Assembly (NCBI GenBank): GCA_913061365.1
Contig: CAJXUT010000008.1
Span: 1-35,318 of the forward strand
Direction of reading: 5' to 3'
DNA: 35,318 bases
DNA from: an uncultured Colwellia sp.
GTDB lineage: Bacteria; Pseudomonadota; Gammaproteobacteria; Enterobacterales; Alteromonadaceae
Position numbers and translations under genes: made by a program. Below, in pieces: positions 12,381 to 30,452 of this stretch; the stretch's first letter is position 1, and each line of letters starts with the position of its first letter. Under the pieces are notes generated by a model. That model searched no databases and was not told the DNA's origin. It worked only from the letters and a program-made list of their open reading frames with translations.

Positions 12381-13109
12381 CTAAAATTCATATTCAATCG
12401 CCATACGAAGAATATGCCCCTTACTGCGGCTATCAACTCCTGTGATAAAGCCAGCTTCCCATTTAAGTTGCTTTTGACCATTAAAGCGTTGAATTCCCAT
12501 AAACGCGGGGCCAATACCTAAATAATTTTCACCTGAATATAGTTCGATAGCAGGCTGGAATTGTTCAAGATAACGATAACGATACTGTAAGCGAAACTCT
12601 GTCTCAAATTCACTTATGATAGTATTTCCCCATTCATAAATAATGAAGCCGTTAAGCGTAAGGCTTGTGCGACCAAACTCTTTTTCTATTAGAACACCTG
12701 ATGTAATTTCCCAATTTTTTTGTCTATGTTCTTTTTCAATTTCAAATAACAATCCCCAATCAGCCCAATATTCGCCCTGCTCAGTCAACATCCAACGAGC
12801 CTCAATCTCATATGAACTCAACTTAAAGTTATCATTAGCATCACGTTCACCAACCAAATAAAGTTCTAGCATAAGACTGTCTGTTAATGATTGACCATAA
12901 GCAAAACGTTGAGCAAACTTATTATCTTCACTGTCTTGAAGTGAAAATAGTCGCCACTCAACTTCACGCTCATTAGGTAATACATAAGGGTGATAGACTT
13001 TATCTACTACAACACCGTCGGCATGAACCATGGCACTAAAACTGAATAATAAAATGGCACTAATAAAGTTAAACCAACAAGACTGATTCATGAGTTGGAT
13101 GGCTTTCAT
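12381..13109 (-). CDS. Secreted, probable outer-membrane beta-barrel protein
   Basis: The track start is too early. The ATG at 13109 overlaps the preceding stop (ATGA) and gives 242 residues beginning with a clear signal peptide (MKAIQLMNQSCWFNFISAILLFSFSAMVHADG). The mature part is rich in alternating aromatic and charged strands (IEARWMLTEQGEYWADWGLLFEIE, YRYRYLEQFQPAIELYSGENY) and ends MAIEYEF. A terminal phenylalanine is typical for outer-membrane barrels. I do not recognise a named family. It is the last gene of the cluster, directly coupled to the FTR1-like permease, so it may provide outer-membrane passage or a scaffold for the same metal/redox process. The function is inference. Confidence 0.7.
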   Translation of the reverse strand: MKAIQLMNQSCWFNFISAILLFSFSAMVHADGVVVDKVYHPYVLPNEREVEWRLFSLQDSEDNKFAQRFAYGQSLTDSLMLELYLVGERDANDNFKLSSYEIEARWMLTEQGEYWADWGLLFEIEKEHRQKNWEITSGVLIEKEFGRTSLTLNGFIIYEWGNTIISEFETEFRLQYRYRYLEQFQPAIELYSGENYLGIGPAFMGIQRFNGQKQLKWEAGFITGVDSRSKGHILRMAIEYEF

Positions 13110-13918
13110 AGAGCTTCTCCAGAAGTAAAACGGACAAAGGATCGATTTGTGCTCAGGTATACAGGAATAATAAAGGCACATATATAGACAATAAGCTGCA
13201 TAAGTGAAGGGGTTGTTTCATAGCCAATAAGAACACGGAGTAATTGCCCAATTTCAGAGCTTTCAGTGATAAAGTTGCTACTATTCCACAGACTATAACT
13301 TAACGGTAAAACGTCCACTTGTTGTAAAAGTACAATCGACTGCATTAACTGAGCTAGAGCAAAAAATAGTAAAAAGTAGTTTGAAGTTTTCTTATGAAGA
13401 CTAGCATCACAATAGCGTAGGAAAAAGAAGAGTAGAATAGCAGCACTGATACAAATACCAACTGCTAAAATAATACCAACAAATAATGATTCAACCCCTG
13501 AATATTCTCCTGTCAACGATTGCGTCCAATAACTTGTTAAATACAGCATAAAGTTTGAGCTATTTAGCGTCAAAACTAATAATAAAATAACTAGAGATAA
13601 ACTTTTTTGAGCCCTGCTATAAAGGTGCTTATTACCCAACAAAAATACTAAGGCACAACATAAATAAATTAGAATAAAGCCCGCTGAAAAGACAAACTCA
13701 GTTCCTTTGCCATCAAAAAGTTGCGATATTTCTTCCATAAAGTAATTTAATAAAAGTACCAATATAATAACCAAAATATTTAGAGCAACGATTTTTTTAA
13801 TGGTAACAATCCTTTTAGAGCTTTCTAAATTCTCAGTTAAGCATAATAATAACAATGCAATCACAATAAACATGGGTAACGCACTTTGTAGAAAGATAAT
13901 AATTGTATTAATTAACAT
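13106..13918 (-). CDS. FTR1-like integral membrane permease, degenerate metal motifs
   Basis: The ATG at 13918 (after AAGAAGGGGAACAGC) gives 270 residues; the longer track ORF only runs back into the upstream gene. There are about seven hydrophobic helices, with the overall plan of the FTR1/EfeU iron permease family, and it directly follows a cupredoxin gene as in Ftr-type loci. The first helix reads FLQSALPMFIVIALLLL where classical FTR1 has a REGLE motif. The second candidate site, YSGVESLFVGIILAVG, keeps only the GxE part. So the iron-binding glutamates and arginine are mostly lost. It is probably a transporter paralogue with a changed substrate, or a redox/assembly membrane partner. The family call rests on topology and context. 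Confidence 0.6.
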   Translation of the reverse strand: MLINTIIIFLQSALPMFIVIALLLLCLTENLESSKRIVTIKKIVALNILVIILVLLLNYFMEEISQLFDGKGTEFVFSAGFILIYLCCALVFLLGNKHLYSRAQKSLSLVILLLVLTLNSSNFMLYLTSYWTQSLTGEYSGVESLFVGIILAVGICISAAILLFFFLRYCDASLHKKTSNYFLLFFALAQLMQSIVLLQQVDVLPLSYSLWNSSNFITESSEIGQLLRVLIGYETTPSLMQLIVYICAFIIPVYLSTNRSFVRFTSGEAL

Positions 13919-14336
13919 GCTGTTCCCCTTCTTTAAGTGCTGTTTCATCATCCAACTCTTTTTTAGGGATTTGTGTATCCACAACAATCACTTTTCCTCG
14001 TGCACTATTTGGATGGTATTCACCAAAAAACTGATATTCGCCTTCTGGCAACGGTCCAATAAAAATAATTGCTTCTTGCTTGGGAAAAAGAACTTTTTCT
14101 CGATTTAAATCAAAGCTGTCAAATTCTTCAACACTATGATCATGGTTCAAGATAACTAACTTAACTTTTTTATTTCTAGGGATAGTGATTTTCGCAGGAT
14201 AAAAAAGATGATTTTTTAAGGCTAGATGGAATTCAGGACGTTTCGCTTCAGCAGTTAAACTAAACAAACAAAGTAAGTTAATTAATACGGTCAGTGTATA
14301 GGCATTTAGGAATCCCTTAAGAAGCTTATCAATCAT
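13908..14336 (-). CDS. Periplasmic cupredoxin-domain protein
   Basis: ATG at 14336, eight bases after AGGAG and overlapping the sensor-kinase stop by eight bases, is a better start than the TTG of the track. It gives 142 residues. The signal peptide (LLKGFLNAYTLTVLINLLCLFSLTAEA) leads into a cupredoxin-like fold: ALKNHLFYPAKITIPRNKKVKLVILNHDHSVEEFDSF, then GPLPEGEYQFFGEYHPNSARGKVIV. The ligand positions resemble Cupredoxin_1 family members that partner FTR1-type permeases (histidines in NHDHSVEEF and GEYHPN). A Cys ligand of the blue-copper type is absent, as is usual in this subgroup. It probably binds copper or oxidises/hands over a metal ion in the periplasm. Confidence 0.75.
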   Translation of the reverse strand: MIDKLLKGFLNAYTLTVLINLLCLFSLTAEAKRPEFHLALKNHLFYPAKITIPRNKKVKLVILNHDHSVEEFDSFDLNREKVLFPKQEAIIFIGPLPEGEYQFFGEYHPNSARGKVIVVDTQIPKKELDDETALKEGEQHVN

Positions 14337-15780
14337 CTCCCTGCTCCTTTTCAAGTGCTATACCTTTAAAATATACAACAACACACAGCCCTTGCAGCAA
14401 AGTTGATTGAGATAGCTCTATATTGGCACCATGAACGTCAGCAATATGTTTAACAATAGTTAAACCTAATCCGCATCCTTGCACATCTGAATTATGTTGA
14501 TCGCCGCCTACGCGATAAAAACGGTCAAAAATTCGTTGATATTCCTTAGGGTCAATACCCGAGCCTGAATCTTCAACACACAATGCTATTTTTTTATTCC
14601 CTCTATTTTTTTCTTCATTAATTAACTTAACCGAAACGTAAATTTTTCCGCCTGTTGGTGTGTATTTGTTTGCATTAGAAATCAAGTTAATGGCTAGTAA
14701 ATGTATAGAAAACTCATGCGCAAATAAGAAAACATCATCACTTTCTAACACGATAGTTTGTTCTTTCATCGCGATATCATTATAAAGTTCAGCAACAACT
14801 TGTTGTAACAATGAGTTCAAATTGAAACGTGTGCTGTTTTGAATTATTTGCGAAGTATTAGTGCGATTTAAATTTAAAATTTGATCGATCACATGTCCCA
14901 TTCTATCAACACTATTGGTCAATTCTTTTACCGAATCAAAATGACGAATATCATTTGCCGTAACAGCTAAGTCTTTTGAAGATAAATGCGTGGAAAAATC
15001 CTGTGTGATGTTATGAACGTTAATTTTCAGCACACTAAGTGGTGTTTTTAACTCATGGGCAGCATCTTCTGCAAAATGCCTTTCCCGTTGAAATGCAGTA
15101 GCTAAACGGGAGAATAGCTGATTTAAGGTTATAACAATATCAGCCAATTCAGTGTTATTAACCGCTAAATTTAGGGGACTAAAATCATTGGTATTACGTT
15201 GCCCAAGCTCTGTACGTAGTTGATGTAACGGCTTTAAACCTTGCGTGATAATGAGATAAATTAGAAAAGATAGAATAACTATTGCAATAATCATAGGTGT
15301 TACTGCTGCTAGGATAAGATCTTGAGCTAAGGCAAATTGAGTTTGTAGCGGTTGTGCAACAATTACGCTGATAGATGGATAATTTTGATCATCTTGTTCA
15401 TTAGATAAAGTAACAACACGCCAACGATTATTTAAAAAATTTACCTCTGAAAAGAAAATAAACTCTTTATTTAAATGGTTATTAGATAATTCAGGGGCAA
15501 TAATAAGGTGATCGGGTGCATTATTACTTTTAATGATTAAAGTGTTATTTTTCCAAACTTGAAAAGCAAAACTACCTTGCTGCGCTACCTGTGTTACTTG
15601 CCCTATTTTGCTCGTTGTCGTTTGAACAGCCATTAACGTTTGAGCAATATCAATTAACTGTTGATCGAACTGCTTTTCAGCTCGTGACATACTCACTTTA
15701 TAGCCCTGAATAGCAGCAATAAAGGTAATTAATGTTAATACAGAAAAGAGGGTTAGAACCAAATAGCGGCGAATGCTCAA
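14329..15780 (-). CDS. Two-component sensor histidine kinase (QseC/PmrB-like)
   Basis: A 483-residue membrane kinase. The first membrane helix is at about residues 6-26, a periplasmic sensor region of about 130 residues follows, and the second helix is LILAAVTPMIIAIVILSFLIYLI. After a HAMP linker comes the H-box FAEDAAHELKTPLSVLK with the phospho-accepting His, then the ATPase boxes NLISNANKYTPTGG, VEDSGSGIDP and GCGLGLTIV. The start is a TTG 17 bases after the regulator stop; no in-frame ATG fits. It is paired with the OmpR-type regulator immediately upstream and lies between apbE and the cupredoxin, so the stimulus is likely periplasmic and linked to the cluster's metal or redox task. The signal itself is unknown. 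Confidence 0.9.
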   Translation of the reverse strand: MSIRRYLVLTLFSVLTLITFIAAIQGYKVSMSRAEKQFDQQLIDIAQTLMAVQTTTSKIGQVTQVAQQGSFAFQVWKNNTLIIKSNNAPDHLIIAPELSNNHLNKEFIFFSEVNFLNNRWRVVTLSNEQDDQNYPSISVIVAQPLQTQFALAQDLILAAVTPMIIAIVILSFLIYLIITQGLKPLHQLRTELGQRNTNDFSPLNLAVNNTELADIVITLNQLFSRLATAFQRERHFAEDAAHELKTPLSVLKINVHNITQDFSTHLSSKDLAVTANDIRHFDSVKELTNSVDRMGHVIDQILNLNRTNTSQIIQNSTRFNLNSLLQQVVAELYNDIAMKEQTIVLESDDVFLFAHEFSIHLLAINLISNANKYTPTGGKIYVSVKLINEEKNRGNKKIALCVEDSGSGIDPKEYQRIFDRFYRVGGDQHNSDVQGCGLGLTIVKHIADVHGANIELSQSTLLQGLCVVVYFKGIALEKEQGDD

Positions 15781-15797
15781 AGCTTAGTACTCATTAC

Positions 15798-16478
15798 TTA
15801 ATATGAATTATTAATAATGTAGCCAACACCACGTACATTTTGAATAAATTTATCAGGTAAATTTTTTCTTAATTTATGAATATGAACTTCAACAGCATTA
15901 CTCAATACTTCTTCACCCCAATGGTATAGCTTTGACTCAATTTGTTCCCGAGATAGTATACGGCCTGCATTTTCCATCAACGCTTTTAACACCATAAACT
16001 CCTTTTTAGAAAAATGGCATTCTATTTCAGTATCTGCGTTATCACCACCGACAAATACTTTATGAGCAAAGGTATCTAGCTTAACTTGTCCCACACAAAT
16101 AAGTGCAGAGCTAGCAGTGCCTAATCTACGTTCAATAACTCGTAATCTCGCCATCAATTCTTGTATCTCAAAAGGCTTAACTAGGTAATCATCAGCGCCA
16201 TAATCAAGCCCTTTAATTTTACTTTCAAGTGAGTCGCGTGCGGTTAAAATGATAACTGGCAATGATGATTTTTGCTTACGCAATTGATTTAACACCTCAA
16301 GCCCATCGATATCAGGTAAGCCTAAATCCAAAATAATCATATCTTGATCGGGTGCAGATAAGGCATTTAATGCGACTTTGCCTTGATTTACATGATTAAC
16401 TACAAACCCTTCACTTTTTAATGATACCTGCAAAGCGCTAGCCAGTGGTAAATCATCTTCAACTAATAATATTCTCAT
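15798..16478 (-). CDS. OmpR/PhoB-family response regulator
   Basis: A 226-residue regulator. The receiver domain at residues 1-115 has acidic pocket LLVEDDLPL, phospho-acceptor Asp in MIILDLGLPDIDGLEV and conserved Lys in VKPFEIQEL. The winged-helix DNA-binding domain follows at about 130-225 (LSREQIESKLYHWGEEVLSNAVEVHIHKLRKNL, NVRGVGYII). It is the partner of the kinase encoded 17 bases downstream. QseB/PmrA-like regulators bind CTTAA direct repeats in many proteobacteria, and three such repeats lie upstream of the first gene of this cluster, suggesting autoregulation. Confidence 0.93.
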   Translation of the reverse strand: MRILLVEDDLPLASALQVSLKSEGFVVNHVNQGKVALNALSAPDQDMIILDLGLPDIDGLEVLNQLRKQKSSLPVIILTARDSLESKIKGLDYGADDYLVKPFEIQELMARLRVIERRLGTASSALICVGQVKLDTFAHKVFVGGDNADTEIECHFSKKEFMVLKALMENAGRILSREQIESKLYHWGEEVLSNAVEVHIHKLRKNLPDKFIQNVRGVGYIINNSY

Positions 16479-16517: not shown

Positions 16518-17432
16518 TTATCTTCTAGCCCAAAATTTAATGTCTTGTTGCTCTAAAAATTGCTCCGCATGAGCGCCTTGAAGTAAAGCAAGTGTTGCGA
16601 GTATTCCTGCTTGAATACATTGAGGTGCAACAACAGTAATTGATCGTGGTGCTTCATTAATTGGCCAGCCTGTTTTTGCATTCAAAATATGGCTATATCG
16701 TTTACCCTCATGAATAAGAAATCGACGAGCATCACCGCTAGTTGCCAGTGCACCTGAATTTAACGAAATAATCATATCTGTATGGTTGTTGTCGGTATTG
16801 TCTGGGTGTTCAATGGCTACTTGCCAAGGTTCGTTGTTGCCACGAGCACAAGTTACAGCTAAATCGCCACCTAAATTAACTAATACAGGACTATCAGTTA
16901 ACTGTTTTGCAAGGATAATAGCGCGGTCAACCGCATATTCTTTACCTATACCACCAAAATCAATTTCCATTCCTTTTGCTAAAGTTATTTGTTTTTGATC
17001 AAAGTGAATTTTTTGCCAACCAACACATGCTAAAGCATCATTAACTTGTTCTTCTATTGGAAAATCATCATATCGGCTTTTGTTACCATGAAAAGACCAG
17101 ACTTTTCTAAGTACACCAGAGCTGATATCAAACAAGCCATCACTTAATTGATAGCATTGTTCAGCAAAGTTTAGTAATAAATAGGTTTCTTCATCGATAG
17201 TAACTGGCTTTGTCGCATTGTTATTAATAGCACTGCAAATACTATGTTGATTATATCGGCTATATTTATCTTCAATACGCCAAACTTCTGTTGCAAGCGT
17301 ATTACCAAGCGTCGTTGCTAATTGCTTGTCAGAAGTTTGTATTATGACCTCACAAGGACTTGCCATGGCCGTAAATGTTATGCCATAGCTGTCTTTATTC
17401 TTTACTAGCTGTATTGATCTACCTGTATTCAA
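16518..17432 (-). CDS. apbE: FAD:protein FMN transferase (ApbE family)
   Basis: ApbE proteins transfer FMN from FAD to a Thr or Ser of a partner protein in the periplasm. The 304-residue sequence has the family motifs FTAMASPCEVII near the N terminus, SSGVLRKVWSFHG, MEIDFGGIGKEYAVDRA, SPVLVNLGGDLAV, and GALATSGDARRFLIHEGKRYSHILNAKTGWPI containing the metal-binding region. No signal peptide or lipobox is obvious at the proposed TTG start, so its location is unclear; a missed upstream start is possible. It follows the DUF3570 gene by 18 bases and shares the operon with DUF4266, an association seen in other genomes. No FMN-bind domain gene is near; the DUF3570 protein holds the only ApbE-target-like motif that I found. 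Confidence 0.9.
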   Translation of the reverse strand: MNTGRSIQLVKNKDSYGITFTAMASPCEVIIQTSDKQLATTLGNTLATEVWRIEDKYSRYNQHSICSAINNNATKPVTIDEETYLLLNFAEQCYQLSDGLFDISSGVLRKVWSFHGNKSRYDDFPIEEQVNDALACVGWQKIHFDQKQITLAKGMEIDFGGIGKEYAVDRAIILAKQLTDSPVLVNLGGDLAVTCARGNNEPWQVAIEHPDNTDNNHTDMIISLNSGALATSGDARRFLIHEGKRYSHILNAKTGWPINEAPRSITVVAPQCIQAGILATLALLQGAHAEQFLEQQDIKFWARR

Positions 17433-17450: not shown

Positions 17451-18776
17451 TTAGAAAGAGTATGTAACTTGGGCAATAATAGCATCAATAGTTGGGTAAA
17501 GATCTAATTCTTTGAGCGCGCCCGGTGCTTCAAAACCTGCATCCGTAGGAGCTTGACGATAATATTCCAATCTAAATGATAAGTCATGACCGTTATTAAC
17601 TAACAAACCGTATTTTAAGCCGACTGTAAACGTAGACATTTCACCTATACGATAATCTGCGCTAGCATAAGTGGGTAAAGCAGCACCATCAATTAAAAAT
17701 GGCTGATAAAACTCTGCCGCACTTTGTTGATAGAATCTAAAATGTGGTTGCAAATAACTTTGCGTACCAAATGCATCACCTAGTGGAATTCTAAAACGCG
17801 TATCAATAGTATGTGAATCAATTTTCCAGTCATCCCACATATAGCGATAAGAAACATCAAGAACTGTGCTATCAAAGTGATAAAGAGCTTGAGCATAAAG
17901 ACTTTGTTTAACTCTAGAATCAGGACGAGACTCATATATATTATCTTGAGTAAGACCACTCACACCGTCAACAACTGATATCACTTTAAATGGGTCAGTT
18001 AAATAGCCATCTACTGTTGCGTAAGAGTAATTAAACTGAGTAATCATTCTTCGATTAATAACTTGTGTAAAGCCTAATAAAACTTCGGTAGTGGTTTTAG
18101 TATCATCTGCTCCAATACGTGTATTAGCAAAATCATCATCCCAAGTTGCTGAATTACTATCACCAATTAACATAGAGCTTAACGCTTGAGGAAGACCTCC
18201 CTCAGGCGTAAAGGTATCTTGAAAGTAACTAAAGCCAGCTGAGATAGTTGAGTTTTTTCTATCAAAGTCAAAAGCTAAATTACCATTAACACCTAGCGAT
18301 AAATAATCATATTCTTTTGATATATGAACACCACCATTAGCAGTGTAATTTGGTGCTATTGCTTGAGTCCATTGGGCATTAAGTTGAACACGTGTATCTT
18401 GAAACGTATCATCAAGTGGCGTATCACCTGCAGTAACGGTGTATTGCCCGTTACCTGAAGGTCGAGTAAATGTTTGTACTGTAGGCTGTGCTACTGCGCC
18501 ATTAGCTGAAGCCCCTGTTAAGGCATCAATGGTTAATTTTAAATTAAGTACTTCATCACCAACAAAGGTTTTTTTAGCATTGAAAATAGCTTCCCCTGCA
18601 CTCACTCTATCGGCTTCGCTATAAAATAAGAATGCACTGTCAAATTCCCAAGTGTTTTCTTCTACTCCGCTATTAGAGTCTGTTTCTGCTTGAGATACAT
18701 TACTTGTACCAAGCAAAGCCGCAGTAGCAAGCGTTAATGCCGCTTTAATATTGGTATTTATATTTTTATGTTTCAT
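17451..18776 (-). CDS. DUF3570 outer-membrane beta-barrel protein
   Basis: A 441-residue protein with a clear signal peptide (cleavage near SQA|ETDS, residue 30) and a long series of amphipathic strands ending YPTIDAIIAQVTYSF, with a terminal Phe as in outer-membrane porins. Length, the N-terminal segment EFDSAFLFYSEADRVSAGEAIFNAKKTFVGDEVLNLKLTIDALTGASANGAV and the tail fit the DUF3570 family. Residues 84-90, DALTGAS, resemble the flavinylation target D-x-x-[ST]-G-A-[ST] of ApbE substrates, and the adjacent gene is apbE. If modified, Ser90 would carry FMN; this is inference. Family function is not established. It sits between the DUF4266 lipoprotein and apbE. Confidence 0.85.
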   Translation of the reverse strand: MKHKNINTNIKAALTLATAALLGTSNVSQAETDSNSGVEENTWEFDSAFLFYSEADRVSAGEAIFNAKKTFVGDEVLNLKLTIDALTGASANGAVAQPTVQTFTRPSGNGQYTVTAGDTPLDDTFQDTRVQLNAQWTQAIAPNYTANGGVHISKEYDYLSLGVNGNLAFDFDRKNSTISAGFSYFQDTFTPEGGLPQALSSMLIGDSNSATWDDDFANTRIGADDTKTTTEVLLGFTQVINRRMITQFNYSYATVDGYLTDPFKVISVVDGVSGLTQDNIYESRPDSRVKQSLYAQALYHFDSTVLDVSYRYMWDDWKIDSHTIDTRFRIPLGDAFGTQSYLQPHFRFYQQSAAEFYQPFLIDGAALPTYASADYRIGEMSTFTVGLKYGLLVNNGHDLSFRLEYYRQAPTDAGFEAPGALKELDLYPTIDAIIAQVTYSF

Positions 18777-18838: not shown

Positions 18839-19063
18839 TTAATTACAGCCACAACCACCGCCACCAAAGCCTTTACCACCACTTGATGCTTCCTTACTAA
18901 AATAAATATGATCATCAAGAGAAGAATCTATAGGAGTTGAATTTAACGACATTTCATCTCTGGCTAGCAAATCTCGCTCCCATGGCTCTACACCTAAACT
19001 TGCGCAACCAGTGGCAACAACAATAAGTGGAACAACTAATATTAATTTAATATTTTTTCTCAT
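18839..19063 (-). CDS. DUF4266 lipoprotein with Gly/Cys-rich tail
   Basis: Start ATG at 19063 follows AAGG at good spacing; the TTG of the track is less likely. The 74-residue product has a lipoprotein signal (MRKNIKLILVVPLIVVATGC, lipobox ATGC), then VEPWERDLLARDEMSLN, a short polar middle (DDHIYFSKEASSGGKGFGGGG) and a C terminus CGCN. This is the DUF4266 pattern. The two terminal cysteines in a glycine-rich tail could bind a metal or be oxidised by the TlpA-like thioredoxin encoded six bases upstream. Anchoring to a membrane by lipid is expected. Function is unknown; it is almost always found with DUF3570 proteins. Confidence 0.82.
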   Translation of the reverse strand: MRKNIKLILVVPLIVVATGCASLGVEPWERDLLARDEMSLNSTPIDSSLDDHIYFSKEASSGGKGFGGGGCGCN

Positions 19064-19074
19064 AATCAACGGCC

Positions 19075-19575
19075 TTATTTGATTGTTTCAATTGGGGTAA
19101 GTAAGTGCTCTATTTCTTGCTGGTATAACGAGATTTTATTGGTATAAAAACCGGTGTGACGAGATTTTATTTTGCCATCTCTTCCTATCAACATGCTGCT
19201 GGGCATTCCCTGTATTTTAAAGTGTTTTGCGATTTTTCCTTTAGGATCGTAGACAACGGTAAAATTAGCTGGCATTTCACTCAGGAATTTAGTCGCTAAC
19301 GCTTTGTTTGCGTCTAAATTAACGCTAATCACACTAAAACCTTGTTGCTTATATTTTGCTTCGATTTTATTCAGCCAAGGGAATGATTTTCTACATGGCC
19401 CACACCATGAGGCCCAAAAATCTAAATATATGACTTCTCCTGCATGTTCAGCTAACGCTTGTTCTAGAGCAACTTGACTGGTGACATTTTCTTGCTCATA
19501 ACTATGGCTCACAAAACTAATCACCATAAATAGAGAAAAAATAAAATATGAAAATTTCTTTAATAAATATTGCAA
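19075..19575 (-). CDS. TlpA/ResA-like periplasmic thiol-disulfide oxidoreductase
   Basis: A membrane-anchored or secreted thioredoxin. I favour the TTG at 19575, which follows AGGTATTCG and gives a tidy signal peptide (QYLLKKFSYFIFSLFMVISFVSHS), over the TTG at 19596, which has no ribosome site. The thioredoxin fold shows EVIYLDFWASWCGPCRKSFPWLNKIEAKY with the WCGPC redox centre, and FKIQGMPSSMLIGRDGKI with the cis-proline region. TlpA/ResA proteins keep cysteines reduced for metal loading, for example in haem or copper proteins. First gene of the cluster, probably serving the Cys-tail DUF4266 protein. Confidence 0.88.
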   Translation of the reverse strand: MQYLLKKFSYFIFSLFMVISFVSHSYEQENVTSQVALEQALAEHAGEVIYLDFWASWCGPCRKSFPWLNKIEAKYKQQGFSVISVNLDANKALATKFLSEMPANFTVVYDPKGKIAKHFKIQGMPSSMLIGRDGKIKSRHTGFYTNKISLYQQEIEHLLTPIETIK

Positions 19576-19680
19576 ACGAATACCTAATATAAACAATTGA
19601 TTGAATAATTAATTATACCCAAGCCATTTCAAGATGCGAGTTTCGGCTAAAGGTTAAAATTGATGATAACGATTACGATA

Positions 19681-21663: not shown

Positions 21664-22569
21664 ATGGAACTTTTTTTAAATAACTGTCAAAACAACCCTG
21701 TAAACTCTTTTTTATTGACGTTAGAGTCAAAATTTAGCGCCAATACTTACCTTTCCCGTATCTCAATTTTTTGTGATTTCTTCTTTAAAACACGCGATTT
21801 TGATGAGTGCAAATGGTCAGAATTAAACCACATAGCAATACTTCAGTACATGCGCTATGAAACAAACAATGATAAAGCTCACACCACAATCAATTTAACT
21901 ATCTCTGCACTGAAAAGTGTTGCTTATGAGTGTTGGCAACAGAAAATCATTGATATTGAATGTTACACCCGTATAAAGATGATTAAAAAGCTAAAAGGCA
22001 CTCGTGCTGCCGCAGGGCGTGTATTGCAAGCCAGTGAAATAGAAAAAATTAAATGTTACTTTAAGAATCATAGCGACATAAGGAATACAAGAAACTACGC
22101 CCTTTTTGCCCTTGCTTGTGGTGCAGGACTTAGGCGGCGTGAAATTATATTGCTTAACATTGCCAACATTAAAAACGGCACTGTATTAGTTCATGGCAAA
22201 GGGAATAAGTCGCGAACTATATTTTTATCAGGCTTTGTTATTGATGCGGTAAATAGTTGGCTTAACGCTTTAAACAGGAAGAGCGGCGCGTTATTCTCAA
22301 GCATTAATAAAAATAACGAGGTATCGACAACCCGCATCTCGTCAATGGGTGTTGGCGTTGTTATTAATCAGATAATAGATGAGGTTGGAATTGAGCATTT
22401 TACACCGCACGACCTAAGAAGAACGTTTGCCACAACACTACTAGAAGTTGGCGCGGATAAAATAGCCGTGCAACGGTTAATGGGACATTCATCACTTAAT
22501 ACAACGATTGTTTACGATAGGCGCGGAGAGAAAACCCAAAGAACAGCGATTGAAATGCTACCTTTTTAA
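21664..22569 (+). CDS. int: Tyrosine recombinase (prophage integrase)
   Basis: A 301-residue site-specific recombinase of XerC/D-like size. The N-terminal SAM-like core-binding domain is at about residues 8-100 (NTYLSRISIFCDFFFKTRDF). The catalytic domain has the first Arg in ALACGAGLRRREIILLN, the Lys in VLVHGKGNKSRTIFLS, the HxxR box TPHDLRRTFATTLLEVGADKIAVQRLMGHSS and the nucleophile Tyr in TTIVYDRRG. All pentad residues are present. It starts 95 bases after attL and reads away from asnB, as expected for a phage integrase acting on the adjacent site. Its last codons run to a bidirectional terminator. A second diverged copy is at 34862. Confidence 0.94.
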   Translation: MELFLNNCQNNPVNSFLLTLESKFSANTYLSRISIFCDFFFKTRDFDECKWSELNHIAILQYMRYETNNDKAHTTINLTISALKSVAYECWQQKIIDIECYTRIKMIKKLKGTRAAAGRVLQASEIEKIKCYFKNHSDIRNTRNYALFALACGAGLRRREIILLNIANIKNGTVLVHGKGNKSRTIFLSGFVIDAVNSWLNALNRKSGALFSSINKNNEVSTTRISSMGVGVVINQIIDEVGIEHFTPHDLRRTFATTLLEVGADKIAVQRLMGHSSLNTTIVYDRRGEKTQRTAIEMLPF

Positions 22570-22599
22570 ACTTAATTAACCTGGTAACGTCACACATAA

Positions 22600-22624
22600 A
22601 AAAACCGCCTAGATAGCGGTTTTT
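22600..22624. terminator. Bidirectional terminator between int and the lysis end of the late operon
   Basis: AAAAACCGC/GCGGTTTTT with loop CTAGATA: a 9-bp stem whose A and T arms serve both strands, sitting between the convergent int and the last minus-strand prophage gene. Confidence 0.85.
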
Positions 22625-22637
22625 GTTATTGGCTTAT

Positions 22638-22799
22638 TTAATCGTCTTTTCTTCTTAACTGCACCGACTCAACAACCGATAACCGAACATCAAAATGATT
22701 AAACTTTTTGTTAATTTGGTGAAGAATACCAAGCCCCACCACAGCGGGTGCTGTCAACCCAATACTAGAGGCTGATTCCAAAAGTGTAAATATATCCAT
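22638..22799 (-). CDS. 53-residue holin-like small membrane protein
   Basis: Too short for the track. The ATG at 22799 shares its A with the upstream TAA stop (TAATG). The product MDIFTLLESASSIGLTAPAVVGLGILHQINKKFN has one hydrophobic helix (about residues 12-30) followed by a charged, coiled-coil-prone tail (FDVRLSVVESVQLRRKDD). Small size, one helix, charged tail and its place last in the late operon next to a hydrolase suggest a holin-like lysis protein. No family recognised; function inferred from position. Confidence 0.6.
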   Translation of the reverse strand: MDIFTLLESASSIGLTAPAVVGLGILHQINKKFNHFDVRLSVVESVQLRRKDD

Positions 22800-23038
22800 T
22801 ACCTGACCACCATTAAAGCATCAACTAAATTATACGTGGCACAATAATCAACACCCACATCAACACCGCGATTTTTAAGCGTGGTTTTTATTACTTTTCT
22901 AAACTCTTTATCCGTTGAATTACAATAAACTTTACTTACATCACCGACTTTGTAAGTACCAGAGCAACTCTGCAATCCACTCAGTAACAACCCTATCAAT
23001 AAAAATACTGTTGTCATAATCTTAGTGCGTAATGTCAT
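22799..23038 (-). CDS. Small lipoprotein-like prophage protein
   Basis: The 79-residue product starts at an ATG with a strong ribosome site (GGGGGTGGATTT). It has a hydrophobic signal (TTVFLLIGLLLSGLQSC) whose end resembles a lipobox (L-Q-S-C), then a short periplasmic part with two further cysteines (VYCNSTDKEF, DYCATYNLVDALMVVR). The lipid-modified Cys and location in the lysis end of the operon fit an outer-membrane spanin subunit or a virion-associated lipoprotein, but no proline-rich spanin pattern is seen. Coupled to the next gene by TAATG. Confidence 0.6.
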   Translation of the reverse strand: MTLRTKIMTTVFLLIGLLLSGLQSCSGTYKVGDVSKVYCNSTDKEFRKVIKTTLKNRGVDVGVDYCATYNLVDALMVVR

Positions 23039-23264
23039 AAATCCACCCCCCTAATGTTTGATTTTCTTTACCTGTTAATGTTTGCACAACCGAGTTAACG
23101 CCACGGTTGAAAATATTGGTTTGGCTGACTGGGTTTAGTGCATCGCCGACCGTTTCAACGGCTTTTGCCGCTTGTCGCTTGGTGTACCAAATACCAACAA
23201 CACCCAAAACACCGACCGCAGCCACGGCCCCCACTTTCGAGTTCAATAGCTTTTCTTTATTCAT
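23022..23264 (-). CDS. 80-residue single-helix membrane protein
   Basis: The ATG at 23264 (ribosome site AAAGGAATTG) is preferred to the TTG of the track. Sequence: basic start MNKEKLLNSKVG, hydrophobic helix AVAAVGVLGVVGIWYTKRQAAK, then a soluble tail (TVGDALNPVSQTNIFNRGVNSVVQTLTGKENQTLGGWIYDITH). It overlaps the upstream 35-residue gene by eight bases and the downstream lipoprotein gene by 17. The tail suggests a virion membrane protein reaching towards the capsid. Function unknown. Confidence 0.65.
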   Translation of the reverse strand: MNKEKLLNSKVGAVAAVGVLGVVGIWYTKRQAAKAVETVGDALNPVSQTNIFNRGVNSVVQTLTGKENQTLGGWIYDITH

Positions 23265-23364
23265 TATCAACAATTCCTTTGGTATGCGCTTTTAATTGAT
23301 AAATAGCCGTTGCACACATTGAAGCAATAACGATTGCCCCAAGTGCGGTTTTTAAATATTTCAT
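23257..23364 (-). CDS. 35-residue single-helix membrane peptide
   Basis: Not in the track. Reading MKYLKTALGAIVIASMCATAIYQLKAHTKGIVDNE, it is one hydrophobic helix with a short polar tail. The ATG shares its A with the stop of the hydrolase gene (TAATG) and its end overlaps the next start, so it fits exactly into the coupled operon. A small internal-membrane virion protein or lysis accessory is likely, as inference. Confidence 0.6.
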   Translation of the reverse strand: MKYLKTALGAIVIASMCATAIYQLKAHTKGIVDNE

Positions 23365-23891
23365 TATGTGAACATCTCCGAAGTTTCACCCATACGATGT
23401 AGACGAGCAATAACAAAGCTTTCTTGTTTTGCCAGTCGCTCACCTTCTCGCGCTTGCTCAATGGTAAACGCACCCTTTGAACCTTCAAACACTGACATGT
23501 GCAACATTAATTCAGGTAGCATTGCAGGGCTAACATATTCATTCGGTGATAATTGCAAGCGGTCAGGATGCGACACGTAATCAATATAAGCTTGTGTGTG
23601 GTTATTTTCTTCCGTTCCACTTGGAGCCCATTTATTGATAATTGCATTTAACGTATTATCGCCACGTTCTAAATATTGCAGCAAAATAATATACCCTGCA
23701 CGAAAGCCGTATTCAGGGCTTTGAAATTCTTCAAAAATTGGGTCGAGATTTAGCGCGCGTTCGCCCGTCCAATCTGCCGACTCTTTAATATTTAGCGGAT
23801 TGTTATTGCGAACGTTTTTAGGTTTTTTAGTCATAAAAAAATATCCTATTGGTAAAATTAATAATGTGACTGTATAAAGACTAGGTTTCAT
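23364..23891 (-). CDS. Membrane-anchored peptidoglycan hydrolase-like virion protein
   Basis: Start ATG at 23891 (TAATG junction with the spike gene) gives 175 residues. An N-terminal hydrophobic anchor (SLYTVTLLILPIGYFF) precedes a domain opening VRNNNPLNIKESADWTGERALNLDPIFEEFQSPEYGFRAGYIILLQYLERG, followed by INKWAPSGTEENNHTQAYIDYVS. The R-N-N-N-P-x-N-I...W-x-G...F...G-x-R-A pattern is that of phage structural and lytic proteins with a transglycosylase-like domain, common in viruses that must breach the cell wall. It likely locally digests murein during entry or exit. Exact bond specificity is not known. Confidence 0.7.
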   Translation of the reverse strand: MKPSLYTVTLLILPIGYFFMTKKPKNVRNNNPLNIKESADWTGERALNLDPIFEEFQSPEYGFRAGYIILLQYLERGDNTLNAIINKWAPSGTEENNHTQAYIDYVSHPDRLQLSPNEYVSPAMLPELMLHMSVFEGSKGAFTIEQAREGERLAKQESFVIARLHRMGETSEMFT

Positions 23892-25354
23892 TACCACCCC
23901 CAAACCTCACAATAACAAACATAATCGCCGCTTTGGTTGCGGTACACATTCACAGTACCTAAAGTTTTATTTACTACGCGCAACTCATATTCATCATTTT
24001 CCCGCTTTATCTTTGCATCAAAGCGATACACGTTTACATAAACGCCCGACCCATTATCTGACTGCCTAGACAAGAACCCTTTAGCAACAACACCGCGAAT
24101 GGCCGAATACAACTCAACACTAATATCATCATCTAAAAGATATGAACCTGCCCTTGCAACGTTAACCTCACCTGTAAAATGTATTAGTGAACCGTCGACC
24201 CTTGTTTTCTTTGTCCCGTCAAACTTTTTTGAGGCACTAGAAAAAAAACCCTGCCAAGCAAAGGCTGGGTTTCCTGATATAGCATTCTGCTTGGCTGTAT
24301 CAAGCACGTTCACCGCTGACCCTGCCGCAATATTCAACATGTTATTTTCAAGCGTGGCAAGCGAATACGAACCCTCAGGAAAAAACACAGGTCTTTTCAT
24401 ATTTACATCATTGTAAATATTACTATTATGATAATAGACCTCTGAAAATGTCCCGTTGTAATTTGGCGAAACTGTTACAGAACTAACAAAATGACAACTG
24501 GCAAAATGACAGTATCTTGCATTTTCCTCTTTGATTTCAACTATTGACAGCTCGCAACCCGTAAACGTCACGCCATTAGAATTTAAAAGATGTATATCAC
24601 CTGCATAAACCTCACAGCCTGAAAAATTAAAAGCTGAAACCGTTATATTGTCTGTAAAAATATTTACTGTATTGTGATTAATTGTTAAACCAGAACAAAC
24701 ACCGTGCGCATCATTGGCACCGCCAACCAAATGCACCCCCGTTAAGTTATCGGTAACGGTTACGGCTGAATAATTATTATTACCCCCTTTAATCCGCAAA
24801 CCTGTATCATTGCCAAAAATAGAGCCTATCGCGGTTTTATTGTATTCTGAGCGCGTACCCTCATTTATACCCGTTACATTGTCTTTAATGACAAAATTAC
24901 TTAAATGATTTCCTTGGTGCCTATCAACACATTCATTACGCTGATAAGCATCACCCTTAAAATCTTTAATGGTTACGTTTTGGGTTTTTGTTTCAACCTT
25001 ACCTAACGCACTAACACCAATAACATTCGTACCTATGTCAGTTTTTCCATTACCAGTGTAATTTATCCCATCAGAAACAGACCTATTTCCATGCTTTAAC
25101 GCGATAACTGTTGCAGGTCTAACCTCTGCACCATAACCAAATATTGTTTGGTCATCTTGCAGCGTAATATCGGCTTTGTAATAATTACCGTCCTTTGGCT
25201 TAGGAACAAAGACCGATAAACCAGTCGCCACCGCCCTTGCGAATGCGGCAGTATTATCCTTTGAATTCCCGCTTGCTTTTGCGCCAAAATTAACAACATT
25301 AACGATGCTGTGCCTTGCATCTATTGCGGAAAGTGAAACCGAAGAGCTACTCAT
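23891..25354 (-). CDS. Pectate-lyase-like beta-helix spike (receptor-binding/depolymerase candidate)
   Basis: A 487-residue protein. Residues about 10-110 hold the start of a pectate-lyase-3/tailspike fold (IVNVVNFGAKASGNSKDNTAAFARAVATG, then YYKADITLQDDQTIFGYGAEVRP). A long repetitive right-handed beta-helix follows to about residue 340 (NNYSAVTVTDNLTGVHLVGG, NTVNIFTDNITVSAFNFSGCEVYAGDIHLLNSNGVTFTGCELS). The C-terminal part is beta-rich (VYRFDAKIKRENDEYELRVVNKTLGTVNVYRNQSG). In tailed phages such proteins are tailspikes that bind or cut surface polysaccharide. Here, in a tailless-virus operon and next to a probable vertex protein, it is most likely the vertex spike. Catalytic residues are not identifiable by eye. 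Confidence 0.75.
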   Translation of the reverse strand: MSSSSVSLSAIDARHSIVNVVNFGAKASGNSKDNTAAFARAVATGLSVFVPKPKDGNYYKADITLQDDQTIFGYGAEVRPATVIALKHGNRSVSDGINYTGNGKTDIGTNVIGVSALGKVETKTQNVTIKDFKGDAYQRNECVDRHQGNHLSNFVIKDNVTGINEGTRSEYNKTAIGSIFGNDTGLRIKGGNNNYSAVTVTDNLTGVHLVGGANDAHGVCSGLTINHNTVNIFTDNITVSAFNFSGCEVYAGDIHLLNSNGVTFTGCELSIVEIKEENARYCHFASCHFVSSVTVSPNYNGTFSEVYYHNSNIYNDVNMKRPVFFPEGSYSLATLENNMLNIAAGSAVNVLDTAKQNAISGNPAFAWQGFFSSASKKFDGTKKTRVDGSLIHFTGEVNVARAGSYLLDDDISVELYSAIRGVVAKGFLSRQSDNGSGVYVNVYRFDAKIKRENDEYELRVVNKTLGTVNVYRNQSGDYVCYCEVWGW

Positions 25355-25977
25355 TAAATTAACTCCAAAACATCGACAAAAACACTTGAGCCGCCCGCAT
25401 TAAACGCCCAAAGTTCTCCAGACGTGTCCATGTAATCCACCACTCCAACATCAAGATAACCACCACTTGAATCACTAACGGTATTATCACCACCCAATGA
25501 AACACCATTGAATTGGTCGCTTCGAATATTGATGCGGTTACTTTTGCGTGTACCTGCATCAAATAACTTAGTAGCAACATCAGGAAGGCATTCAACACGT
25601 GGTTTATGGGTGTTTGTTATTGCTGATAAAGTAGCAACCGTCCAAGCGCCTTGTTGCGCAACTGCACCAATCGTAAATGCTTCATCAAAATGCACTTCGA
25701 TAGGTGACGTATTAATTATTTCAGTGCGTGTTACTTGTGCTTTTTTACCGATAGCTGTACTTGTAATAACAAAATCAATAACGACCTGCTCATTAGTCAT
25801 GTTTTGCAATGTTATTTTAGGTCTATCACCAATGTTGATTTGGTCGCTCGTTTCCAGTGGTATATCTTCAAGCCCTTTAGCTGAAAGCTCAACAGAGCCG
25901 CTAAGACTTATTACCGTAAAAATACCACCGCTAGAATTTATGGTTTTCTTTTCATAGCCCGCTAATGTTAATTTCAT
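25354..25977 (-). CDS. Probable vertex (penton-like) protein
   Basis: A 207-residue, beta-rich protein without signal or membrane segment. The N-terminal half (TINSSGGIFTVISLSGSVELSAKG, KITLQNMTNEQVVIDFVIT) and the C-terminal half (RINIRSDQFNGVSLGGDNTVSDSSGGYLDVGVVDYMDTSGELWAFNAGGSSVFVDVLELI) look like two small beta-sandwich units. Proteins of this size next to the spike gene form five-fold vertices in tailless viruses with double jelly-roll capsids. It is coupled to both neighbours by TAATG junctions. I cannot name a family; the role is inferred from composition and place. Confidence 0.5.
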   Translation of the reverse strand: MKLTLAGYEKKTINSSGGIFTVISLSGSVELSAKGLEDIPLETSDQINIGDRPKITLQNMTNEQVVIDFVITSTAIGKKAQVTRTEIINTSPIEVHFDEAFTIGAVAQQGAWTVATLSAITNTHKPRVECLPDVATKLFDAGTRKSNRINIRSDQFNGVSLGGDNTVSDSSGGYLDVGVVDYMDTSGELWAFNAGGSSVFVDVLELI

Positions 25978-26363
25978 TATTTAGCTGCCTTTTTTTTATC
26001 GTTCGACATATTTGAGGAAACAACGACCGCAAGCACTATCGCGCCCACAATACTAATACCCGCTAAATAGATTGTTTTAGTTGTTTTTAAATCACCCGTT
26101 TTAATTTCTGTCGCTAAATCTTGGACTGAATCAATCGCCTTATTACTAATCGTTGAGACTCGCTCATTTGCATTACCTGCAAACTCTAGCGCGTCCGAGC
26201 TGATTTCTTCTATTGCGCCAAAACTTAACGCGATTGCGTCATGGTCAGTTAATACAAGTGAATTTCCATCACTCGCCGTTATCTGTACACCCGATTCATT
26301 ACTGGCGTTATTGGTTTCCGTTAACGTTTGATTGGTTGTTGCGCTTTTTGAACTGCCGCCCAT
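25977..26363 (-). CDS. Virion membrane protein candidate with C-terminal helix
   Basis: A 128-residue protein. The Gly/Ser/Thr/Asn-rich N terminus (MGGSSKSATTNQTLTETNNASNESG) precedes a middle alpha-helical part (LSFGAIEEISSDALEFAGNANERVSTISNKAIDSVQDLATEIK). The C-terminal membrane helix is TIYLAGISIVGAIVLAVVVSS, followed by a lysine-rich end. The MGG start recurs in two other genes of the element (26910 and 30701). The design, soluble part first and anchor last, suits a protein that sits in the internal membrane and contacts the capsid shell. Function unknown. Confidence 0.65.
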   Translation of the reverse strand: MGGSSKSATTNQTLTETNNASNESGVQITASDGNSLVLTDHDAIALSFGAIEEISSDALEFAGNANERVSTISNKAIDSVQDLATEIKTGDLKTTKTIYLAGISIVGAIVLAVVVSSNMSNDKKKAAK

Positions 26364-26716
26364 TAGAGGGTTCTCCTAAAAATACTCTCGACAAACTCAA
26401 AGTCTTGTCTGATTAATTTTAATATTGCGGGTCGTTTTGTATGAAAACGAATTGAAGAAAAGCCGCTATTTTTAACGGCTTGAATAACACCTGTAATAAT
26501 TTCGCCCAAGTTTTCACCCTCAAAACAACACACAACAAGCTCTTTGTTTTCGGCGCGGGTTAGCATATAAGCCTGACCCTTTTGCAATCTCCAACATTGA
26601 GCTATACCGCTATCGCATTGCTTTTTAAGTGCCACACCATCATCACCAACCGATTTTGATAAATATGGCGCAGCTTGGGCGAATGTTATTTTTTCAGCTA
26701 TTACTTTTTCTTCCAC
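26363..26716 (-). CDS. Small GNAT-like-fold protein, unknown function
   Basis: GTG at 26716, eight bases after GGTGGA, is the most likely start; the track ORF runs back over the preceding gene. The 117 residues (VEEKVIAEKITFAQAAPYLSKSVG on) have an alternating alpha/beta pattern with ELVVCCFEGENLGEIITGVIQAVKNSGFSSIRFHTKRPAILKLIRQDFEFVESIFRR, like the strand-helix-strand end of an acetyltransferase fold. No acetyl-CoA loop is obvious, so enzymatic activity is doubtful. Soluble, no membrane helix, embedded between virion membrane protein genes. Confidence 0.55.
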   Translation of the reverse strand: MEEKVIAEKITFAQAAPYLSKSVGDDGVALKKQCDSGIAQCWRLQKGQAYMLTRAENKELVVCCFEGENLGEIITGVIQAVKNSGFSSIRFHTKRPAILKLIRQDFEFVESIFRRTL

Positions 26717-26910
26717 ACGTAAATTCCACCAATAACCGCGATTGAGATAACAGAAAGCCCCGTGACCCACGGCGGCATTGATATGCCTTTGTTGATATTT
26801 AACCCGCCTTGCGTTGCATTGGTGGTTGAGTAAACATCGCCCGAAGTGGCAGAGCTACCCATATCGGCAGATAAACCACCGCCACCCGTAAGGCTTGCCA
26901 TGCCGCCCAT
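26701..26910 (-). CDS. Gly/Ser-rich single-helix virion membrane protein candidate
   Basis: 69 residues: MGGMASLTGGGGLSADMGSSATSGDVYSTTN, a flexible glycine- and serine-rich half, then the membrane helix PWVTGLSVISIAVIGGIYVW and a KKK end. TAATG junction with the upstream gene and a 16-base overlap with the downstream one. Similar in plan to small internal-membrane proteins of PM2-like viruses, but no specific homologue is claimed. Confidence 0.65.
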   Translation of the reverse strand: MGGMASLTGGGGLSADMGSSATSGDVYSTTNATQGGLNINKGISMPPWVTGLSVISIAVIGGIYVWKKK

Positions 26911-27215
26911 TATTTGACAGCCTTATAAACAACACCCGCAACCAACAATCCACCAAAACCAATCGCTGAATACAAGCCGATTTTTTTATAATTGATATTT
27001 ATTGAGTCGTTAACAACAATTGTCTCCCCTGCTTGCGTTTCACCGCGTTCAGGTTGGTAGATTGTGTCAGTATTGCCATTGGCATAATTGACGGGCTTTA
27101 TCGTTTCACGACTAGATTCGCTAAACTTGGCATTTACATAAGTATTAGCCAAGCCCACGAACGCATCAAAATAGCCGCCGTTATCTTCTTGTGATTTCTC
27201 AACAATAGATTCCAT
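26910..27215 (-). CDS. Membrane-anchored virion protein candidate
   Basis: 101 residues starting MESIVEKSQEDNGGYFDAFVGLANTYVNAKF, a polar, glycine-poor middle (NYANGNTDTIYQPERGETQAGETIVVNDSININYK) and a C-terminal helix IGLYSAIGFGGLLVAGVVYKAVK. It begins 10 bases after the capsid gene, with the ribosome site AAGGGG, and ends in a TAATG junction. Its place directly behind the capsid gene suggests a structural role between shell and membrane. Function unknown. Confidence 0.65.
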   Translation of the reverse strand: MESIVEKSQEDNGGYFDAFVGLANTYVNAKFSESSRETIKPVNYANGNTDTIYQPERGETQAGETIVVNDSININYKKIGLYSAIGFGGLLVAGVVYKAVK

Positions 27216-27225
27216 GCGTTACCCC

Positions 27226-28035
27226 TTAAGCAGCTTCAAGCACTTCAAATAACACAGGAATGTTACCCGCAGCACTAACTGTTGGCTTTATCTCGAAAGA
27301 CTTACCCGCCGTTTGTAATGAATCCATCAAGTTAAAGCCAGACGCGATAGCATCAAAGTGCATGTAGCCCGCTTGCTTGTTTCGCTTAAAACGACTTAAC
27401 ATCAAATCATTTTGTGCTGTACTCATATTCCAACGTTCTAAGCGGTTATGCTTAATCGTTAAGTTGGTAATATTGGCTGTTTTCATGTGCATACGCTGAA
27501 TGCGTGGACCGCGTGAAAAAGTACTAAAGTTATTTAAACCCGTGGCGCTTGCATCAATATCAAGTACATATTTACGCGGGACATAAACGCGTTGCTCTAA
27601 AGCGCCACCGATTTCTAATCGACCACGTTGACGAATAAAGCCCGCGATTTCTGGCGAATCACCATCGTTGGTTTGCTGTGCAGTAGCGGCAGCAATTTTT
27701 AAGGTAAGCGTTAATTTATCTTGTGCAGTAGTTACAAGACCCGTTAGATTTTGACCGTCTTCTGTGCGACCTGTTAAATCATCAAATGGCACAATGAAAA
27801 TACCCGCCGCGATTGCATCAGGGTTTTTGTACGCTTCAATCATGCGTAAATCTTCACCCGTTAAATCGTAAATTACATCGCCATTAAGCTTTAATTGTGC
27901 TTGTAATAATTGGTCATTATCCATATTGGTCATTAAGACGATATCAGATAAGACCGCGCCCGTTTCGATGTGCATAGTGGTTTTACCCGCCCATACAATA
28001 GAAACATTATCGAGTTGTTGATTAGTATGGCGCAT
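27226..28035 (-). CDS. Major capsid protein, P2-type double jelly-roll
   Basis: ATG at 28035, eight bases after AGGTGG, gives 269 residues, the same length I recall for the P2 capsid protein of phage PM2. The N-terminal jelly-roll reads IETGAVLSDIVLMTNMDNDQLLQAQLKLNGDVIYDLTGEDLRMIE with PFDDLTGRTEDGQNLTGLVTTAQDKLTLTLKIA. The second half is YVLDIDASATGLNNFSTFSRGPRIQRMHMKTANITNLTIKHNRLERWNMSTAQNDLML, with the end HFDAIASGFNLMDSLQTAGKSFEIKPTVSAAGNIPVLFEVLE. This order of motifs is that of the viral coat protein P2 family. No HK97-type features are seen. It would form the trimeric capsomers of an icosahedral tailless capsid. The start of the coupled late gene order is here. Confidence 0.85.
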   Translation of the reverse strand: MRHTNQQLDNVSIVWAGKTTMHIETGAVLSDIVLMTNMDNDQLLQAQLKLNGDVIYDLTGEDLRMIEAYKNPDAIAAGIFIVPFDDLTGRTEDGQNLTGLVTTAQDKLTLTLKIAAATAQQTNDGDSPEIAGFIRQRGRLEIGGALEQRVYVPRKYVLDIDASATGLNNFSTFSRGPRIQRMHMKTANITNLTIKHNRLERWNMSTAQNDLMLSRFKRNKQAGYMHFDAIASGFNLMDSLQTAGKSFEIKPTVSAAGNIPVLFEVLEAA

Positions 28036-28036
28036 A

Positions 28037-28147
28037 TTATTTACCACCTAAGAATTTAACAGCGTCAACGTTATTTGATGCGTAAACAACCGCACCAGAT
28101 ACCGCAACGGCAATAAGGGCAGATAGCCCAATAGTTTTGTAGTTCAT
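28037..28147 (-). CDS. 36-residue single-helix peptide upstream of the capsid gene
   Basis: Not in the track. MNYKTIGLSALIAVAVSGAVVYASNNVDAVKFLGGK: one hydrophobic helix with a short tail. The ATG lies after AAGGGTTCGACT and the stop falls one base before the capsid ATG, so both are read as a unit. It is the first gene of the late operon. A virion membrane peptide is likely. Confidence 0.6.
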   Translation of the reverse strand: MNYKTIGLSALIAVAVSGAVVYASNNVDAVKFLGGK

Positions 28148-28268
28148 AGTCGAACCCTTATTAAAAATGAATGTATAAATCGGTTTTGAGTAGAACAAAT
28201 GATTCCAAATTGATTCAACAAGTATTCGGAAACGATTCGGAATTGCATTTTTAAAATCAAGGCAATAA
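28148..28268 (-). promoter_or_regulatory. Candidate late-operon promoter with ATTCGGAA repeats
   Basis: A TATACA box (minus strand, 28172-28177) is the best -10, with no convincing -35. Two copies of ATTCGGAA lie at 28224 and 28235, 11 bp apart, about 50-65 bases upstream of it. A third copy is at 28301, beyond the terminator. Spacing by one helical turn suggests a regulator binding site that activates capsid gene expression. Confidence 0.4.
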
Positions 28269-28292
28269 AAAACCGCGCAATTGCGCGGTTTT
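28269..28292 (-). terminator. Terminator after the packaging ATPase gene
   Basis: Perfect 24-base palindrome AAAACCGCGCAATTGCGCGGTTTT followed on the minus strand by more T residues. It separates the early/replication transcript from the capsid operon. Confidence 0.9.
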
Positions 28293-28311
28293 AAAGGGTT
28301 ATTCGGAAATA

Positions 28312-29130: not shown

Positions 29131-29659
29131 TAGTCATCACCTCGCTTGTTTTCTCATTATTGACTTGTAACCAAATAGGTAAACCCGCAACACCAACACC
29201 GACCGCAGCCATTACTTCAGGAATCCAAGAATCCAAATCGACACCATCAGGGTTTACATTTATTTTAGGCTTGTATTTTTGAATAAGCGGCGCAGTTAAC
29301 ACAGCAAAAATAGTGGTCGGCATTTCACCAATCACAATTTCCTTACCTGTTAACTCACTGGCTATTTTTGTTATTTGACCGAGGCCCGCAATAGCAATAC
29401 CCATTGCTTGCTCAGCACTAACTTTTGTTTGTGCTTGCTCTTCATTGCTCGAATGCTCGCTTTTTTCTTTCTGCTCGCTTTCTGCTTGCGTGGCGGTTGC
29501 CTCGCCTAGAATATCGTCTAATTCGGAATTATCCACGCTATACATGGGAATACTGTCATTATTGCTTTCGGAATTTTCCAAAATCATATTCGAAACTTCT
29601 TCGGACCTTTTCAAACGCAAAACGCCACGGCTTTGATTATTTTCACTGGCTTGTTCCAA
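29114..29659 (-). CDS. Acidic protein with a C-terminal membrane segment
   Basis: 181 residues, TTG start after GGGGTAG. The N-terminal half is acidic and low-complexity (ENSESNNDSIPMYSVDNSELDDILGEATATQAESEQKEKSEHSSNEEQ), the middle is helical (AEQAMGIAIAGLGQITKIASELTGKEIVIGEMPTTIFAVLTAPLIQKY), and a hydrophobic segment follows near the end (PEVMAAVGVGVAGLPIWLQV). It overlaps the ATPase start by 17 bases, so they may function together, for instance as membrane anchor of the packaging enzyme. That is inference; no family recognised. Confidence 0.65.
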   Translation of the reverse strand: MEQASENNQSRGVLRLKRSEEVSNMILENSESNNDSIPMYSVDNSELDDILGEATATQAESEQKEKSEHSSNEEQAQTKVSAEQAMGIAIAGLGQITKIASELTGKEIVIGEMPTTIFAVLTAPLIQKYKPKINVNPDGVDLDSWIPEVMAAVGVGVAGLPIWLQVNNEKTSEVMTSGDKC

Positions 29660-29662
29660 AAT

Positions 29663-30070: not shown

Positions 30071-30073
30071 GGT

Positions 30074-30448: not shown

Positions 30449-30452
30449 TTTT

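Follow-up and report, generated by a model that had tools for sequence, protein, structure and literature searches.

The question raised by this locus is whether a DUF3570 protein from an uncultured Colwellia sp. carries covalent FMN and, if so, where the cofactor would be attached and what it would do. In the 35,318-nucleotide stretch of DNA that we analyzed (the window), the gene for this protein occupies positions 17451..18776 of the minus strand, and the initial annotation suggested a flavinylated outer-membrane protein that might serve as an electron exit path. Flavinylation of the family is not a new idea: a DUF3570 protein from Chlorobium luteolum acquires its flavin from the cognate ApbE upon co-expression of the two in E. 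coli, and the modification is abolished only when both of its [ST]GA[ST] serines are changed (Meheust et al., 2021; PMC8238504). The same study described a gene cluster for ApbE, DUF3570, a thioredoxin-like protein and DUF4266, with or without DsbD (PMC8238504), so both the flavinylated substrate family and the cluster are already published. The co-expression experiment cannot tell in which compartment DUF3570 is natively modified (PMC8238504).

The Colwellia gene encodes a 441-residue precursor that matches PF12094 over its full length (509 bits against a Pfam cut-off of 25; profile positions 2-427 of 427), with a signal peptide at approximately residues 1-30, as judged by inspection, and no cysteine in the mature protein. 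The sequence DALTGAS (D84 to S90; 18507..18527, minus strand), which had been described only as close to the ApbE target motif, fits D-x-x-[ST]-G-A-[ST] exactly, and an exact motif arose in 0.76% of 20,000 shuffles of the protein's own residues. The numbering 84-90, previously taken to be that of the mature protein, is that of the precursor and corresponds to approximately residues 54-60 of the mature one. The predicted FMN site is Ser90 (18507-18509, minus strand). A second look-alike, DGVSGLT (residues 270-276, with GL for GA), is not conserved in relatives, and we regard it as a chance occurrence. As the initial annotation stated, apbE is the next gene (16518..17432, minus strand; PF02424, 228 bits), 18 bases past the DUF3570 stop codon on the same strand, and no FMN_bind protein is encoded in the cluster: PF04205 has no match in DUF3570 itself or anywhere else on the contig, and its six matches in the genome all lie off this contig.

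We followed the motif in two samples, one comprising 143 distinct DUF3570 proteins drawn from related genomes and one comprising 80 named loci. It is present in all 80 of the latter (79 canonical and one DSLTGSS, with GS for GA), a figure that is biased somewhat upward because, of the two sequence patterns used to pick these loci, one includes the motif. In the 143-protein sample, which is free of that bias, the glycine is kept in 72 of the 75 proteins whose gene adjoins an apbE; the three exceptions belong to a separate clade, and the ApbE beside them is of another, exported kind. A tree built without the motif columns divides the family at a long, fully supported branch into two clades, A and B. 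The motif glycine is found in 86 of the 87 clade A proteins, and the sole exception (L163) retains another, intact site later in the same loop, which we call L2. In clade B the glycine has been lost from 47 of 56 proteins (SSAS, TSAS or SNAS in its place), L2 is trimmed to a median length of 11 residues versus 36 in clade A, and the type of ApbE found next to the Colwellia gene is lacking. The association of motif with apbE gives a Fisher p of 3e-16, but the value misleads, for in essence it records a single division, that between the two clades; as evidence for independent evolution the association was rejected, the independent-pairs test being non-significant.

Within clade A the number of candidate sites varies: by the relaxed pattern [ST]G[AGS][ST], which may slightly overcount, 71 proteins have a single site in L2, 12 have two and 4 have three. 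Clear tandem pairs occur in L076 (DTVSGGTPIWVDTVSGAS), L091 and L073, and three tandem sites in L089, L090 and L098. The pair of sites described in the Chlorobium protein is in keeping with this range of one to three. We know of no single-site DUF3570 protein in which flavin has been measured. Downstream, the loci with three tandem sites also encode a DsbD-like protein and an ApbE that, like the Colwellia enzyme, is of a leaderless type, the latter 4-5 kb away.

Several further arrangements are found within the family. In clade B loci (most of L093-L142, and L249), DUF3570 is followed by a conserved protein of ~190 residues and two TPR proteins; the L249 cluster also encodes CxxCH proteins and, ~11 kb upstream, an exported ApbE. 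In L119, L125 and L129 a glycine-less (SSAS) DUF3570 adjoins an exported ApbE. These three proteins may still be modified, because a Gly-to-Ala change in another ApbE substrate leaves approximately half of the flavinylation (PMC12052999). Finally, three loci encode DUF3570 proteins of ~900 residues (L153:5866-8625, L154:5890-8625 and L155:4930-7641) with a His/Met-rich C-terminal extension that is possibly a second, metal-related barrel; in two of the three, the gene adjoins a leaderless apbE.

AlphaFold2, run with 49 relatives, predicts a 16-stranded barrel for the Colwellia protein (pLDDT 87.5, pTM 0.83). The signal peptide, the even number of strands and the C-terminal phenylalanine (the protein ends in YSF) are all features of outer-membrane barrels, and the top PDB matches found by Foldseek are all such barrels, among them OmpG, a siderophore receptor, OccD, FadL and AlgE. 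None of them is a close solved structure (query TM-scores no higher than 0.45), and a sequence search of the PDB found no relative. DUF3570 is thus almost certainly an outer-membrane barrel, and its outer-membrane location is strongly supported.

In the model, the motif takes up the last residues of strand 3 (residues 76-88) and runs into the following connection, L2 (residues 89-124; 18405..18512, minus strand), of which Ser90 is the second residue; the serine is thus outside the strands that make up the barrel wall. The motif itself is modeled at a pLDDT of ~90. The long connections L2, L4, L5, L7 and L8 are all at the end of the barrel away from the two termini. Within clade A their lengths vary widely (15-98 residues for L2), whereas turns T1-T4 are near constant, T5 and T6 vary little and T7 has one outlier. 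In barrels generally, the side with long loops of variable length is the outside. L2 should therefore face outward, which we consider likely. Unlike the usual variable surface loop, L2 is well conserved: it is the best conserved of the long loops, with 12 of 36 positions invariant. Conservation is also higher for residues facing the lumen (0.80) than for those facing lipid (0.63). Taken together, the conserved motif, the barrel model and the Chlorobium precedent (PMC8238504) support the earlier suggestion of a flavinylated outer-membrane protein, and Ser90 very likely carries FMN. Two checks proposed with the initial annotation, the conservation of the motif among apbE-linked DUF3570 proteins and its position relative to the barrel wall, both failed to refute that suggestion.

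Where that FMN would be attached is suggested by the ApbE itself. The window's apbE has a TTG start, an in-frame stop six codons upstream and a hydrophilic N-terminus, and its product has neither the signal peptide nor the lipobox of a classical periplasmic ApbE, while retaining the DFGG, TSGD and YxHI motifs and, in the alignment, a GKEY signature. We examined 150 DUF3570-linked ApbEs. Three linked to clade B (those of L119, L125 and L129) have signals; a conserved signal peptide was found in none of the 147 linked to clade A, which include some genomes present in both samples and so are not all independent. Five of the 147 passed a crude signal filter, in each case through an out-of-frame reading across the end of DUF3570. 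Of 24 further ApbEs encoded in the sampled genomes, 20 passed the same filter and 23 have a signal or lipobox by eye; of the 143 DUF3570 proteins, 107 passed it. Most of the linked ApbEs share GKEY; the exported ApbEs examined have GKG or GKH at that place. Among 100 related genomes, the leaderless type, defined by an E value of 1e-60 or lower, is present in 49 of the 50 with a clade A DUF3570 and in none of the 50 without, and in the single miss (G094) a more distant apbE adjoins the DUF3570 gene (L085).

We therefore consider it probable that DUF3570 is modified in the cytosol. The leaderless ApbE would modify Ser90 with FMN while the precursor is still unfolded. The flavinylated precursor would then pass through Sec and be folded into the outer membrane by BAM, and its FMN would come to lie either at the outer face or within the outer half of the lumen, held by the conserved L2, L5 and L7. 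This reading is the simplest. The enzyme would work in the compartment that produces FAD, and the final position of the site on the outer side would pose no obstacle to its modification. Cytosolic ApbE has a precedent in the enzyme that serves a soluble fumarate reductase (PMC12052999); we found no report in the open-licence literature of a leaderless ApbE that serves an exported substrate.

Alternatively, an exported ApbE could flavinylate unfolded DUF3570 in the periplasm, with the leaderless enzyme serving a cytosolic protein or being a spare. ApbE is classically described as a lipoprotein of the periplasm (PMC12052999), and the genome does encode an exported ApbE near an FMN_bind gene (L246) that could act there. 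This arrangement is nevertheless unlikely, given that it is the leaderless enzyme that adjoins DUF3570 and accompanies the clade A type in all but one of the genomes that have it, and that the cognate ApbE flavinylates DUF3570 in the Chlorobium case (PMC8238504).

The neighboring genes bear on what the flavin might do. The cluster begins with an exported TlpA/ResA-like thioredoxin (WCGPC; 19075..19596, minus strand; Redoxin/Thioredoxin_8 matches), followed by a gene absent from the initial annotation, which lies between those for the thioredoxin and DUF3570 and encodes a 76-residue DUF4266 lipoprotein with a lipobox and the C-terminal sequence GGGGCGCN (18839..19069, minus strand; PF14086, 81 bits). 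The CGC tail of this lipoprotein is present in all 165 homologues. These two genes, DUF3570 and apbE are all adjacent on one strand. The cluster contains no DsbD, and we saw no heme protein in it; the one DsbD of the genome is encoded elsewhere.

Downstream of apbE, the row continues on the minus strand with an OmpR-type response regulator (15798..16478; PF00072, PF00486), a sensor histidine kinase with a 2CSK_N domain (14329..15780; PF02518, PF00512, PF08521), a periplasmic cupredoxin-like protein (13908..14354; PF13473, 95 bits), a multi-span membrane protein that weakly resembles EfeU/FTR1 (13106..13987; NCBIfam EfeU, E 4.6e-5, with a score far below the NCBIfam cut-off and no Pfam match) and a putative exported beta-rich protein with no Pfam or NCBIfam match (12381..13181). 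Matches near DUF3570 were found in 31 of the 80 named loci for the regulator, 29 for the kinase, 19 for the cupredoxin and 22 for the beta-rich protein, which accompanies the cupredoxin/FTR1-like pair. The module as a whole (12381-16478) is found near DUF3570 in ~19 of the 80 loci, in varying position and orientation, sometimes inverted or upstream. A candidate Fur box upstream of the cluster (19661-19680, three mismatches) was rejected: in 67 relatives there was no enrichment upstream of the thioredoxin gene (mean 4.66 mismatches, versus 4.86 in shuffles and 4.40 inside DUF3570).

The same window also contains a likely tailless prophage related to the corticovirus PM2 (21664-33600), with an integrase, a P2-type double jelly-roll coat protein (27226-28047; PF18628, PF25513), a HerA-like packaging ATPase (28312-29130), a replication protein (30701-32830) and a cytosine methylase (32827-33600).

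The thioredoxin and the CGC tail of DUF4266 suggest a thiol relay from the single DsbD to the flavin. In this scheme DsbD would reduce the TlpA-like thioredoxin, which would hand electrons to the DUF4266 tail; the tail would pass them to FMN, and FMN to an acceptor on the outside, for which ferric iron is one possibility. Iron is plausible in this role because the cupredoxin and the EfeU/FTR1-like protein follow in 19 of the 80 loci, although the resemblance to EfeU is weak and the candidate Fur site found no support. Electron exit through DUF3570 can be put forward only tentatively, at slightly under an even chance. The difficulty is that a periplasmic donor must reach a site predicted to lie near the outer face, and entry of the DUF4266 tail into the barrel lumen is one possible solution.

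Flow in the opposite direction also deserves consideration: FMN could oxidize the CGC dithiol of DUF4266 and pass electrons to oxygen or another acceptor, so that disulfides would be made at the outer membrane. Oxidases that pair a flavin with a Cys-x-Cys dithiol are known, and the invariance of the CGC tail and the presence of a thioredoxin partner are consistent with such a pairing. We nevertheless judge this direction improbable: the thioredoxin of the cluster is ResA/TlpA-like, a typically reductive type, and DsbD, a supplier of reductant, is encoded in some clusters of the family (PMC8238504). Least probable by far is that DALTGAS is a structural element or relic that carries no flavin in Colwellia, for although clade B conserves the loop as [ST]-x-A-S without the glycine, as if part of the pattern were kept for another reason, and some glycine-less proteins also have an exported ApbE nearby, the near-universal glycine of clade A, the adjacent apbE and the flavinylation demonstrated in one family member (PMC8238504) all argue against it.

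Overall, we favor as the probable explanation a flavinylated 16-strand barrel that receives FMN in the cytosol and is then exported, and that may provide a route for electrons to the outside. The most detailed version, which combines cytosolic flavinylation, Sec export with FMN in place, a surface loop bearing one to three FMNs and a cytochrome-free conduit fed by a CGC lipoprotein, is more speculative and, in our estimate, less likely than not to hold in full.

The known electron routes across the outer membrane are mostly heme-based. If our reading is correct, a widespread barrel family with a covalent flavin on the outside would constitute a heme-free route, of relevance to iron reduction and marine respiration. 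The missing signal peptide of ApbE leads to a sharp claim, namely that modification precedes passage across the inner membrane, so that an outer-membrane protein makes this crossing with its cofactor already attached; it also means that genome surveys restricted to exported ApbEs would overlook the DUF3570-linked enzyme. In our view, the interest of the system lies in the dedicated, signal-less ApbE, the outward flavin loop, in which the number of sites varies, and the sister clade from which these sites have been lost. In the open-licence literature we have not met a conserved outward L2 with one to three sites, a signal-less dedicated ApbE, or a sister clade with a trimmed L2 and lost glycine. 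The 2021 study is the only paper that we found to name DUF3570; the words barrel and porin are absent from its text, which mentions the outer membrane for siderophore receptors only (PMC8238504), and DUF3570 was not modeled in a 2024 follow-up.

The closest known systems are the clusters of Meheust et al. (PMC8238504), which share with ours the same four genes, a DUF3570 with [ST]GA[ST] and a DUF4266 with a CxC end; many of them also resemble the Colwellia cluster in having no local DsbD. The Chlorobium DUF3570 has two sites, whereas the Colwellia protein has one, as do 71 of the 87 clade A proteins, and the Colwellia row continues with the two-component system, the cupredoxin and the FTR1-like protein. 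The searched text of that study is silent on an outer-membrane barrel fold for DUF3570, on its sidedness and on any signal-less ApbE. The leaderless cytosolic ApbE of Klebsiella pneumoniae (PMC12052999) similarly has no signal peptide, but its substrate is a soluble cytoplasmic fumarate reductase, whereas that of the Colwellia enzyme would be the signal-peptide-bearing precursor of an outer-membrane barrel. With respect to inferred function, the nearest parallel is with MtrAB-type porin-cytochrome conduits, in which a barrel likewise passes electrons across the outer membrane; in contrast to these, no heme protein was seen in the Colwellia cluster, its periplasmic partner would be a CGC-tailed lipoprotein and its cofactor would be a covalent FMN.
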